Part shown: in pieces, positions 4,663 through 29,306 of the stretch | Layout: every line of letters begins with the position of its first letter | How positions within the stretch are numbered: position 1 is the first letter of the stretch | DNA from: a virus | DNA length: 35,102 bases | Strand: one strand, 5' to 3' | Virus record (IMG/VR): IMGVR_UViG_3300022929_002751 | Span: 1-35,102 of that record | The notes under the pieces: model-generated | The model's input: the letters and a program-made list of their open reading frames with translations, nothing else | What the model was told of the DNA's origin: nothing | Database searches by the model: none | Program-made: the position numbers and the translations under genes

Positions 4663-5207
4663 CATTTGGATGTAGTTTTACCCGAGGAGATGGCTTACAA
4701 GATAGAGCCAAACAAGCATGGCCAGCAGTGCTAAGTCAACTGCTAGGGCGCTCCTGTGTGAATATGGGCATCCAAGGTGCGAGCAATAAAGAAATATGGA
4801 ATACATTGGTTGACACACGTTTCAAAGCAAATGATATTGTATTTGTAAATTGGACATTCTGTCATAGGGCTATGTTTAATCAGCAACAGCTTATCGCAAC
4901 AAGAGATCCTATGACCGAAGAAGAAGAGTTTTATTATAAAAAACTATACACCAAAAAACATGGCAAAGATGAATGGATTGTGCTTATGAATCATGCTGGT
5001 AGATATCTACGCAGCAAGAATATAAAAATGTTCAACACAGTAATTGAACGTAATATGGGTAGATGGTTACCTAGATACAATATGGAAACTATACTGCCTG
5101 CTCATTGGGAAAAGTATCAACACAAGTATGAGAAAGCCCTAGACGGATCACATCCAGGGCCACTAGCTCATGCCGCTTTCGCTCAAAGAATCTCTGAACT
5201 TATTTAA
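4647..5207 (+). CDS. SGNH/GDSL-type hydrolase-like protein
   Basis: A 186-residue protein. SGNH blocks are visible: FGCSFTRGDG near residue 8 (nucleophile Ser), NMGIQGASN near residue 36, and DGSHPGPLAHAAFA near residue 165 (catalytic Asp-x-x-His). The family hydrolyses esters, often deacylating lipids or glycans. The start at 4647 is taken as the first ATG after a weak GGGAAG; a TTG at 4638 is possible. The gene ends convergently with the minus-strand YbaN-like gene, their stops overlapping by 8 bases. Phage members may act on surface glycans; that is inference. Confidence 0.65.
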   Translation: MARLVAFGCSFTRGDGLQDRAKQAWPAVLSQLLGRSCVNMGIQGASNKEIWNTLVDTRFKANDIVFVNWTFCHRAMFNQQQLIATRDPMTEEEEFYYKKLYTKKHGKDEWIVLMNHAGRYLRSKNIKMFNTVIERNMGRWLPRYNMETILPAHWEKYQHKYEKALDGSHPGPLAHAAFAQRISELI

Positions 5208-5616
5208 ACCACGCTATCTTTTCTCCGGCAGCTTTACGTCTATCGTACTCTTCAGGTGTGCTTGGATATCTCCAGCAATAAATTGCTACCAATATCATGA
5301 AGCTACCTGTCCAAAGTGCTGCCTTTTCATTACCTGTAGCAAAGTAGGTAAATGCTACTGTGGTAGCCATTGTAGCAACCATAAAGTATTTTAATTTCAA
5401 CGGAAACACTTTTTTACTCTGCCAGTTTGTAAGGAATGGTCCAAACAATTTATGGTTATACAACCAGTCGTGCATTCTTTTGCTGCTTTTGGCAAAACAA
5501 TATGCTGCCATTACAACAAAAATACTCCACGGTAGTCCAGGAAGAATAACTCCTAAATAGGCAATGCCAAGCAATATAAAGCCGGCAGCTGCCCATAACA
5601 TTTTACGTAATTTCAT
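5200..5616 (-). CDS. YbaN-like (DUF454) inner-membrane protein
   Basis: A 138-residue membrane protein. DUF454 features: N-terminal helix [40 protein letters not shown] with the typical PGLP and AxxCFAKSS, then [14 protein letters not shown], and two further membrane segments near residues 78-115. Its ATG lies within the last 14 bases of the hemA-like gene on the same strand, so they form a two-gene coupled operon. The biochemical role of DUF454 is not established. Pairing with ALAS may mean a link to haem or to membrane conditions; that is inference. Confidence 0.75.
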
Positions 5617-6805
5617 CTAATACCTTTCTAACAGCTCTTACACAATCGTCTATCATAGCATCTGTATGAAGAGGTGTAGGAGCAAATCGTAACCTTTCTG
5701 TGCCAACCGGTACTGTAGGATAGTTTATCGGTTGAACGTAAATATTATAGTCTTCTAATAATTTATCACTAATCTCTTTACAGGTCACGGGATTACGAAT
5801 CATAACAGGAACAATATGGGTACAAGATACATCTAAAACTTCAATGTCGTTACACATAAATTTTTGTTTTAATTTCTGTGCTTGAAGTTGGTGTCTATCT
5901 CTTAACTGTTGGTTATCTTTAAGCCATTTAACACTGGCCAATGCGCCAGCACACAACACAGGAGATAAAGATGTAGTGAATATAAAACCAGAAGCAATAG
6001 ATCTTATGGCATCTATCACAATGGAATCTCCGGCAATATATCCACCAGTTACACCAAAAGCCTTGCCTAGCGTACCATTGACAATATCTACACGATGTTG
6101 AATACCTAACTTTTGTAGATACCCTGCTCCATGCTCTCCATACAAACCTACCGCATGGACTTCGTCTATGTAGGTTATTGCCTGGTACTTATCAGCAAGG
6201 TCGCAAATAGCTTCTATTGGACTGACATCGCCATCCATGCTATACACGGATTCAAATACAATGCAGGGGACTTGATTCGCTGCGGTAACCTCTGCCAATA
6301 GATGCTCTAACTGCTCCATATCATTGTGCTGCCAAATGCGTTTGTCAGCACCACTGTGGCGGATACCCTGTATGAGGCTTGCGTGATTCTTTGAGTCACT
6401 CAAAAACACAATGTTGGGAATGATTCGGCTTAAAGCAATTAGACTCCATTCATTTGCGACATAAGCACTAGAAAATAGGAGCGCACTTTCACTACTATGT
6501 AGTCGTGACAGCTCATATTCTAATGCTACATGATAGTGACTTGTGCCGCTTATATTACGAGTACCGCCAGAACCGGCCCCTGTTTGATCTAATGCTGTGT
6601 GCATGGCATCAATTACTATCTTGTGCTGTCCCATTCCCAGATAATCATTGCTACACCAATTTACTATCTCCTTAATAGCATACTTGCCATACCAAATATT
6701 TTTAGGAAACTTACCTCGTTCTCGTAGAATATCGTTGAAAACTCTGTAATTACCTTCTGCTTTTATTTTGTTGATTAGTGTGTCAAACGGTGTTTTATCA
6801 ATCAT
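5603..6805 (-). CDS. hemA: 5-aminolevulinate synthase (C4 pathway)
   Basis: A 400-residue PLP enzyme joining glycine and succinyl-CoA to 5-aminolevulinate, the first step of haem synthesis in alphaproteobacteria. Seen motifs: [49 protein letters not shown], the PLP-binding [15 protein letters not shown], and the lysine loop [13 protein letters not shown] near residue 245, with a C-terminal RLRFAPTP. Length equals bacterial ALAS (about 400). The close alternatives, KBL and BioF of the same fold, are less likely because of the TSHYHVALE and HAVGLYG details, but a search should confirm. A GATAAATA late promoter lies 25 bases upstream; the ribosome site is weak. Confidence 0.88.
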
Positions 6806-6829
6806 TATGTGCTCTGTTAATGGTAAAAA

Positions 6830-6837
6830 TATTTATC
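6830..6837 (-). promoter_or_regulatory. Late promoter GATAAATA for hemA operon
   Basis: On the minus strand, 24 bases before the hemA ATG; RNA would start near 6824. It suggests ALAS is made late. Confidence 0.6.
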
Positions 6838-6901
6838 AAAACTAAAGTTATGTGATACTATATCTAAATCTGTTGGGTTTTATCTGTACATGATTGAGTA
6901 C

Positions 6902-6909
6902 TTAAATAA
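6902..6909 (+). promoter_or_regulatory. Possible late promoter TTAAATAA
   Basis: A weak match to TATAAATA in the 147-base gap before the 6953 gene. It is the only candidate seen there. Confidence 0.3.
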
Positions 6910-6952
6910 TAGGCTACTTTCAATGTAGTCAACAAGAAGGAGGTATTTCGTT

Positions 6953-7183
6953 ATGGAAATGCTTAATAAAGTAAAAGAGTGGGCAGGCGCATTAGCAAAT
7001 GTTGGTGTTAGCATCGCAGCTCTAGCAATCATTCTAGAAGTTCTAGGACTAGGCAACATGCCATTCATGCCTGACATGAGCGTGGTGGCAAACGTGACAG
7101 CTATGTTATCATCACTAGGTTCTGAAGGAATTATGGGCTTGATTGCTGTATGGGTACTATGGGCTATTTGGCAGCACAAGTAA
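6953..7183 (+). CDS. Small membrane protein, two TM segments
   Basis: A 76-residue protein with a very strong ribosome site (AAGGAGGT, 9 bases before the ATG), so it is probably abundant. Two hydrophobic helices at about residues 13-33 (ALANVGVSIAALAIILEVLG) and 58-74 (IMGLIAVWVLWAIW) flank a Met/Pro-rich turn. Similar small two-helix proteins occur in marine T4-like phages. A holin-like or virion-associated role is possible, but nothing here decides it. An intrinsic terminator follows directly. Confidence 0.7.
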   Translation: MEMLNKVKEWAGALANVGVSIAALAIILEVLGLGNMPFMPDMSVVANVTAMLSSLGSEGIMGLIAVWVLWAIWQHK

Positions 7184-7186
7184 ACA

Positions 7187-7363
7187 TCAACTGGAAGGGG
7201 GCTTCGTGTCCTCTTCCTTTTTTTCTAACCATCTATCATATAATTCTTTGTCCCAATAAGTATAACTGCCAAGCATGGTAGTCATGGTAAACAATCCCAT
7301 AAGATTTAATTCTTTTTGAACCGCTTGATAATCTTCGATCCATTCTTTAATAACTTTTAACAT
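7187..7363 (-). CDS. Small acidic/aromatic protein, 58 aa
   Basis: A short minus-strand ORF filling the gap between two plus-strand genes. It begins MLKVIKEWIEDYQAVQ, continues through a Met-rich LMGLFTMTTMLGSYTYWDKE, and ends EEDTKPPSS. Composition is protein-like, with codon use like the neighbours and no stop in 58 codons. No strong ribosome site is seen. The terminator of the 6953 gene overlaps its last codons. It may be a real host-takeover peptide or chance. Confidence 0.45.
   Translation of the reverse strand: MLKVIKEWIEDYQAVQKELNLMGLFTMTTMLGSYTYWDKELYDRWLEKKEEDTKPPSS
7193..7224 (+). terminator. Intrinsic terminator
   Basis: A 9-bp stem (GGAAGGGGG with a GU-containing partner ending CTCTTCC) followed by seven T, 9 bases after the 6953 gene. 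Confidence 0.75.
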
Positions 7364-7373
7364 ATAGTATATA

Positions 7374-7381
7374 GCTAAATA
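7374..7381 (+). promoter_or_regulatory. Late promoter GCTAAATA, leaderless spacing
   Basis: Five bases separate its last A from the ATG at 7387, so RNA should start at the ATG itself. Confidence 0.6.
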
Positions 7382-7386
7382 GTATT

Positions 7387-7653
7387 ATGAGAGCAACAGA
7401 TATTATACGCATGATGCTGGACATCATTGATCAAAAAGAAATACAGCAGCCTGAACCAAGTGAGCCAGTGGCCAGCAGGTTTAAACAGATATATGATGTG
7501 CTGAGTAAACGTGATACTAGGAGTGTAGCCAATGCTCCTAATGAAGTTGTTACATCAATCGATGCTGTTACAACAGATGCTGGTGGCGGCGTAAATGGTC
7601 CTAAGCATCCAGCAGATATTAGAGTGAAGGACCCTTCACCGTATGGCAAATAG
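7387..7653 (+). CDS. Virion-region protein, hypothetical
   Basis: An 88-residue protein. The N-terminus (RATDIIRMMLDIIDQKE) is a likely amphipathic helix, followed by a Pro/Glu linker and a C-terminal Gly-rich segment with GPKHPADIRVKDPSPYG. It overlaps the next structural-type gene by 11 bases in another frame. Such short proteins precede the next gene's family in marine myoviruses, so a neck, tail or decoration role is likely but unproven. No ribosome site; predicted leaderless transcript. Confidence 0.65.
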   Translation: MRATDIIRMMLDIIDQKEIQQPEPSEPVASRFKQIYDVLSKRDTRSVANAPNEVVTSIDAVTTDAGGGVNGPKHPADIRVKDPSPYGK

Positions 7654-28013: not shown

Positions 28014-29306
28014 ATGTTAGAAAAACTATTTGGGTTGTCAGCAGCAGGAACTACTGTAAGAACAGAAGTAATGGCTGGTTTAGCAACCTTTCTTACAATG
28101 GCATATATTACTGTAGTCAACCCAGCTATTCTTTCAACTGAAGGATCAGGTATGGGTTTTGGTGCTGTGTTTACAGCAACCATTATTGCCGCAGTAATTG
28201 GCACATTGATAATGGGTCTCTGGGCTAATTGGCCAGTAGCACTCGCACCAGGTATGGGACTTAATGCGTTCTTTACTTTTGGTGTTATCTTTGGTATGGG
28301 ATATACCTATCAACAGGCACTTGCCGCTGTATTTGTAGCTGGTATTGTGTTTATTGGACTTAGTGTAACACCAGCACGTAAGTATATTATTAACAGCATT
28401 CCTAAGTCTATGAAACTTGGTGTTGGCGCAGGTATTGGCCTGTTTCTTGCCATTATTGGTTTGAAAAATGCTGGCATTGTAGTTGACGATCCTGCTACAC
28501 TAGTAGGACTTGGAGACGTAACTAGTTGGCCAGTATTGCTAACAGGTTTAGGCTTTGTAATTATGGCAATCCTAGACAAGCGTAAAGTTCCAGGCGCAGT
28601 GATTCTTGGTATTCTAGCTGTATCAGCTATTGCTTGGATCACAGGTATTGCGGACCTAGGCGGAGTAGCTGGTGCTATTCCAAGTCCTGAACATGCCTTT
28701 AGTATGGACTTTAGTGCTCTATTTACAGCAGGATTTATTGGAGTTGCTTTTGCCTTTTTGTTTGTTGACTTTTTTGACACAGCAGGAACACTTACAAGTG
28801 TTGCTAACCTAACAGGAAAAGTTAATGACGATGGCGAAGTAGAGCAAATTGATCGTGCTTTACTTGCTGATTCAGTAGCAACTACAGCAGGTGCGTTAGT
28901 AGGAACATCAAACACTACTTCATACATTGAAAGTGGAGCAGGTATCAAAGAAGGTGGTAAGACAGGACTTACAGCAGTAGTTGTCGCTATCTTGTTCGGT
29001 GCTTGTTTATTCTTAGCGCCACTAGCACAAAGCATTCCAGCTTATGCTACAGCGCCAGCACTAATCTTTATTGCTACATACTTTTTACGCAACATCGCAG
29101 ATATTGACTGGGATGATGTAACTGAGTATGCTCCAGCAGTATTGGCAGCAGTGTTGATGCCACTAACATTTAGTATCGCACACGGCATTGCTATTGGCTT
29201 TGTAGCTTATGCGCTAATCAAAGCATTAAGCGGTCGTACAGACGATCTAAATGGCGGTAGCATTGCTATCGCAGCTATCAGCGTTATCTATTTTATCGCT
29301 GTATAA
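28014..29306 (+). CDS. NCS2-family (AzgA-like) purine permease
   Basis: A 430-residue membrane protein with about 12-14 helices. Signatures of the AzgA/GhxP branch: RTEVMAGLATFLTMAYI at the N-terminus, NPAIL, ALAPGMGLNAFFTF near residue 82, FFDTAGTLTSVANL near residue 255 and SGAGIKEGGKTGLTAV near residue 310. These proteins import adenine, guanine or hypoxanthine with protons. Full length for the family. GGGAG lies before the ATG. The downstream phosphoribosyltransferase would trap the base as nucleotide. I know of no common phage gene of this type. Confidence 0.88.
   Translation: MLEKLFGLSAAGTTVRTEVMAGLATFLTMAYITVVNPAILSTEGSGMGFGAVFTATIIAAVIGTLIMGLWANWPVALAPGMGLNAFFTFGVIFGMGYTYQQALAAVFVAGIVFIGLSVTPARKYIINSIPKSMKLGVGAGIGLFLAIIGLKNAGIVVDDPATLVGLGDVTSWPVLLTGLGFVIMAILDKRKVPGAVILGILAVSAIAWITGIADLGGVAGAIPSPEHAFSMDFSALFTAGFIGVAFAFLFVDFFDTAGTLTSVANLTGKVNDDGEVEQIDRALLADSVATTAGALVGTSNTTSYIESGAGIKEGGKTGLTAVVVAILFGACLFLAPLAQSIPAYATAPALIFIATYFLRNIADIDWDDVTEYAPAVLAAVLMPLTFSIAHGIAIGFVAYALIKALSGRTDDLNGGSIAIAAISVIYFIAV

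Follow-up and report, generated by a model that had tools for sequence, protein, structure and literature searches.

A phage 5-aminolevulinate synthase gene overlaps a gene for a DUF454 membrane protein, a candidate partner in tetrapyrrole or iron handling

Introduction

Phages are already known to encode 5-aminolevulinate synthase (ALAS). Wegner et al. (2024, Nat Commun; PMC11480375) found alaS in phages of both marine and fresh waters, sometimes on its own and sometimes accompanied by hemO and pcyA/X. They reported that many phage AlaS proteins lack the haem-feedback residues and, solely for a freshwater phage enzyme related to ours, showed complementation of an E. coli ALA auxotroph. The main text of that study mentions neither DUF454 nor YbaN. 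In E. coli, the DUF454 member YbaN is a Fur-regulated inner-membrane protein whose gene belongs to the Fur iron regulon (PMC7157518), and two further papers report that iron restriction raises DUF454 (PMC7970244) and that T11SS loci contain DUF454 alongside haem oxygenase and TonB genes (PMC12282271). Judged by titles and passages, none of the consulted papers mentioning DUF454 concerns a phage.

Here we analyse a 35,102-base virus record from a marine phage (the window) that encodes an ALAS of the published phage kind, followed by an overlapping DUF454 gene. Both open reading frames lie on the minus strand at 5200–6805, where the initial annotation had placed an ALAS coupled to a YbaN-like gene under a late promoter. 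Phage ALAS is known, and its commonest partner has apparently been overlooked: the coupling to DUF454, which we did not find in the literature, appears to be the new and testable part.

Results

Positions 1777–34754 of the window are 99.9% identical to a 112,976-base virus record (G001, hereafter the 113-kb phage), which adds about 78 kb of sequence. The neighbours of the two genes include an HNH nuclease, a phage structural-type protein, a ribonucleotide reductase (RNR) and an endolysin, and the stretch around them is variable, with HNH and SGNH/GDSL-type genes. Judged by these neighbours and the 113-kb record, the locus is phage DNA. A large protein of this phage best matches Methylophilales phage Melnitz (48.8%) and then HTVC008M; other links lead to cyanophages and to Pseudomonas phages of ~287 kb. 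The T4 major capsid protein Gp23 turned up in just one of 50 related records and was therefore discarded as a lineage marker. Record sizes among the relatives go up to 237 and 275 kb; the two concerned (source records of L025, 236,751 bases, and of L014, 275,366 bases) each contain ALAS, hemO, bilin reductase and DUF454, and jumbo-sized phages, represented by virus records above 230 kb, thus seem to carry the full set.

The ALAS gene (5603..6805, minus strand, ATG start) encodes 400 residues that match the ALAS model TIGR01821 with 563.3 bits (cut-off 338.55) over residues 6–399, i.e. at full length. Rhodobacter capsulatus ALAS (HemA, PDB 2BWN) also aligns full length (443 bits). Its substrate residues R21, T83, N85 and I86 and its pyridoxal-phosphate lysine K248 are all matched in the window protein, as R21, T82, N84 and I85 (the last three in a T-R-N-I stretch) and the catalytic K248. 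Unlike the R. capsulatus enzyme, the window ALAS lacks both haem-feedback residues, H342 and C400: the alignment places T341 at the position of H342, and the C-terminus has no nearby cysteine. The window enzyme may therefore be freed from haem feedback. In a tree of 79 sequences, it falls among phage sequences (support 98), with alphaproteobacterial ALAS outside; two phage ALAS (L092 and L094) branch outside the main phage clade. PHROGs holds a family for neither ALAS nor DUF454, and the INPHARED matches to ALAS are KBL/BioF-like genes of 27–36% identity, mostly in records resembling host contamination.

Two readings would deprive this gene of its status as a phage ALAS, and we consider both highly improbable. 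A KBL- or BioF-type synthase would share the fold family, and the KBL and BioF models do match the protein (322 and 318 bits). Both scores nevertheless fall under the models' own cut-offs and trail the ALAS model by 240 bits; phmmer gives 443–445 bits against solved bacterial ALAS and 212 against KBL, and the KBL-like rows form a distant, fully supported separate clade (100). Profile scores and tree together rule this identity out, and the phylogeny proposed as a check in the initial annotation groups the window protein with ALAS to the exclusion of KBL. The other reading, under which the virus collection would here contain bacterial DNA or the remnant of a prophage, could draw on the fact that ALAS is normal in alphaproteobacteria and on four bacterial-bin contigs nested inside the phage ALAS clade. 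It is countered by the 113-kb record, in which phage genes flank the locus on both sides, and by sequence identity: the closest ALAS in 289 alphaproteobacterial genomes reaches 60%, the maximum for the sampled cellular copies, as opposed to 69–100% for dozens of viral contigs. Contamination is ruled out by the flanking genes and the longer record. Going by its sequence, the open reading frame is a complete, true ALAS, as first annotated, and a member of the published viral kind (valaS): an aquatic phage genome encodes it, it lies inside the phage AlaS clade, the catalytic lysine is kept and the feedback residues are lost.

Three of the phage-type ALAS contigs are binned as Rhodobacteraceae (L154), Neomarinimicrobiota (L151) and Flavobacteriales (L152). 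L154 has ThyX-, RNR- and primase-like genes beside ALAS and L151 carries the HNH family of the window, so both are apparently phage contigs that ended up in bacterial bins; L154 may be the "Rhodobacter-like bin" exception of the published tree. The fourth ALAS nested in the phage clade belongs to Neisseriaceae bacterium PsAf (L153, 5001–6188), a louse symbiont (PMC9376444), and its neighbours, as read from sequence, are bacterial-looking (SurA-like, LptD-like and others). A search for the GlutR domain detected no glutamyl-tRNA reductase in that genome. Subject to genome completeness, this is a possible phage-to-bacterium transfer of ALAS that replaced the C5 route, and the gene looks like a natural complementation.

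The DUF454 gene (5200..5616, minus strand, ATG start) encodes a small membrane protein of 138 residues that scores 103.7 bits against PF04304 (gathering threshold 35.1) and 66.7 bits against the YbaN equivalog NF007818 (cut-off 163). "YbaN-like" is therefore apt, and YbaN itself would be the wrong name. The protein has four long hydrophobic helices and conserved positions H49-x-W51-x3-H55, W65 and K76, the HxWxxxH, W and K positions being common to the aligned bacterial copies of the same Pfam family. Most of those copies lack the C-terminal tail of the phage proteins, EExxRRxxxGxxIAW. The structural model is confident (pLDDT 91), yet it gave no functional clue, as neither the PDB nor the viral library contained a structural relative. 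The start of the gene and the stop of ALAS share a 14-nt overlap (ATGAAATTACGTAA, 5603..5616, minus strand), as had been noticed at the outset, and a Shine–Dalgarno-like GAAAGG (5623..5628, minus strand) within the ALAS frame precedes the start of DUF454 by 6 nt. Overlaps of 4–23 nt between the two genes recur across many related loci.

A T4-like late promoter element, GATAAATA (6830..6837, minus strand), sits upstream of ALAS, 32 nt from its start, and recurs at the same distance from ALAS in seven related loci. The exact form TATAAATA does not occur ahead of ALAS and was rejected as the promoter, its count in the window being that expected by chance. The looser ATAAATA is enriched before genes: in the 113-kb phage, 23 of 40 sites fall in the 60 nt preceding an ORF start (2.7 expected; 4 of 40 in the antisense control), and none of the A/T heptamers counted outranks ATAAATA. 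We thus found NATAAATA placed before genes, in the manner of T4-like late promoters. By analogy, GATAAATA is a well-supported prediction for the late promoter of ALAS, in keeping with the initial annotation.

The 113-kb phage also encodes a haem oxygenase (hemO, G001:73976–74413) and a ferredoxin-dependent, pcyX-like bilin reductase (G001:73197–73751), 33 kb from ALAS, and these two genes overlap each other. The phage thereby has the published hemO–pcyX–valaS set as a broken cassette, in which hemO and bilin reductase are separated from ALAS, as is also described for valaS. The hemO–pcyX cassette of marine phages such as Mosig EXVC030M is similarly overlapping, and the bilin reductase is closest to that of pelagiphage Mosig (53.7% identity), which, in contrast, has no ALAS or DUF454 match. 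Among 50 ALAS phage records, hemO is present in 18 and bilin reductase in 17, all 17 of which also have hemO.

The association that is absent from the main text of the valaS study is the commonest one here. The 50 records were drawn from ALAS and DUF454 scans, eleven of them (L091 on) having been found via DUF454, and 47 contain DUF454; among the ~40 found via ALAS alone, only three are without it. For 75 distinct ALAS genes, DUF454 is placed directly downstream in 42 cases, most with overlapping ends, and otherwise upstream, one gene away or farther; even when non-adjacent, it is still found within the ALAS record (e.g. L018, L064, L070). At one locus (L012, 9588–11606), two different DUF454 genes flank a single ALAS and overlap it on both sides.

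The two genes have not simply travelled together. Their arrangement changes at least eight times on the ALAS tree. The ALAS clade of the window, L003 and L005 is rejected by the DUF454 data (p-AU 2e-76) and the DUF454 clade of the window, L007, L009 and L010 by the ALAS data (p 0.0035); as the tested clades were chosen after the identities had been seen, these p-values are somewhat generous, although the first is so small as to be decisive. The Mantel correlation is near zero, of which a star-like tree may be part of the cause. The strong conflict between the trees means that the pair was re-formed repeatedly, from different DUF454 lineages, and rules out simple hitch-hiking of one ancestral pair. 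Such repeated pairing argues for a shared function.

DUF454 is no general phage feature, since seven matches in 50,697 deposited phage records include none that looks genuinely phage. Nor is the link common in alphaproteobacteria: a single tight ALAS–DUF454 pair among 289 genomes indicates that the association is mainly a phage one. In an alphaproteobacterial genome (G246; L302, 6364–9294), DUF454 lies directly upstream of one of the two ALAS genes of that genome, with a LysR-family regulator adjoining.

Other phage records place DUF454 beside other genes of tetrapyrrole or iron metabolism. In L304, where no ALAS is in view, hemO and bilin reductase are followed by DUF454 in a run of three overlapping genes (6013–6567, 6564–7250 and 7213–7638), and L305, again with no ALAS in view, has a like run by position and similarity. 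A NifU/IscU-like gene overlaps DUF454 in L308 (4592–5369), near an aminotransferase class V gene (IscS/SufS-like), so that phage iron–sulphur genes are tied to DUF454 there. Some DUF454 phage records of at least 30 kb, possibly fragments, have neither ALAS nor hemO.

Discussion

We propose that the two genes form an auxiliary metabolic cassette, in which a late-promoter ALAS is coupled to DUF454 as a membrane partner for tetrapyrrole or iron flux, and we judge this reading to be probable. Late in infection, host RNA polymerase would be redirected to GATAAATA and would co-transcribe ALAS and DUF454, the overlap of which would couple their translation; late timing and co-translation are both predicted from the arrangement. 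ALAS would raise ALA, host enzymes would convert it to haem, and the distant phage hemO and bilin reductase would divert part of the haem into bilin and free iron. DUF454 presumably takes part in the handling of tetrapyrroles or iron at the inner membrane, where it could bind, move or export haem or porphyrin, or aid iron supply. A broader proposal, that DUF454 is a dedicated tetrapyrrole or iron membrane component (e.g. a carrier of haem or porphyrin) that phages have recruited repeatedly as the companion of ALAS or of hemO–bilin reductase, seems to us evenly balanced.

That DUF454 is instead a passenger in an auxiliary-gene hotspot, its proximity to ALAS reflecting a shared position and not a shared function, is in our view unlikely. 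Such an origin would suit the variable surroundings of the cassette, where HNH and SGNH/GDSL-type genes occur, as well as a locus (L307) where DUF454 adjoins the same HNH family with no ALAS in view. A passenger would hardly be expected, however, to overlap the ALAS stop codon with its start codon in several DUF454 lineages, to be kept in the pair despite conflicting gene trees, to remain in the record when displaced from ALAS, or to join hemO–bilin reductase and NifU/IscU operons elsewhere, and the literature on iron regulation of DUF454 and ybaN speaks independently against it. As to the fate of the ALA, the initial annotation had named haem or bilin synthesis, which suits a phage that also has hemO and bilin reductase, and had suggested that haem may be limiting for respiration in infected cells; because the phage has a bilin reductase, bilin output or iron release is equally plausible. 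The stricter alternative, that ALA serves bilin formation and iron release via HemO and the bilin reductase and not respiratory haem, is tentative and somewhat less probable than its negation: it is favoured by the overlap of hemO with the pcyX-like gene, by the kinship of the latter to the Mosig reductase and by the constant company of hemO and bilin reductase in 17 ALAS records, whereas the majority of ALAS records, including some of 90–100 kb (G004, G010 and G032), have no visible hemO. ALAS is thus seemingly kept without hemO too, with the caveat that records may be incomplete.

If the broader proposal, of DUF454 as a dedicated tetrapyrrole or iron component, is true, it would provide the first function for a widespread bacterial family that includes E. 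coli YbaN. Should DUF454 handle haem, porphyrin or iron, phages would reveal the role of a common Fur-regulon membrane protein. The pairing further adds to the phage tetrapyrrole genes a membrane step that can be tested, and it might explain how porphyrin damage is avoided or haem is moved under forced ALA synthesis.

Other genes of the phage

Three further genes of the window stood out. The product of 28014–29306 bears a PHROG label of tail protein that looks wrong, as it matches PF00860 with 186 bits and is accordingly a xanthine/uracil-type permease; a nucleobase permease is unusual in a phage. A plastocyanin/azurin-type copper protein (PF00127, 30747–31178) is encoded by the same phage as the haem genes and is a possible electron-carrier auxiliary gene. 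Finally, a class 3 lipase gene (PF01764; 12388–13149, minus strand) is preceded by AATAAATA 29 nt upstream, an arrangement like that of the ALAS cassette.
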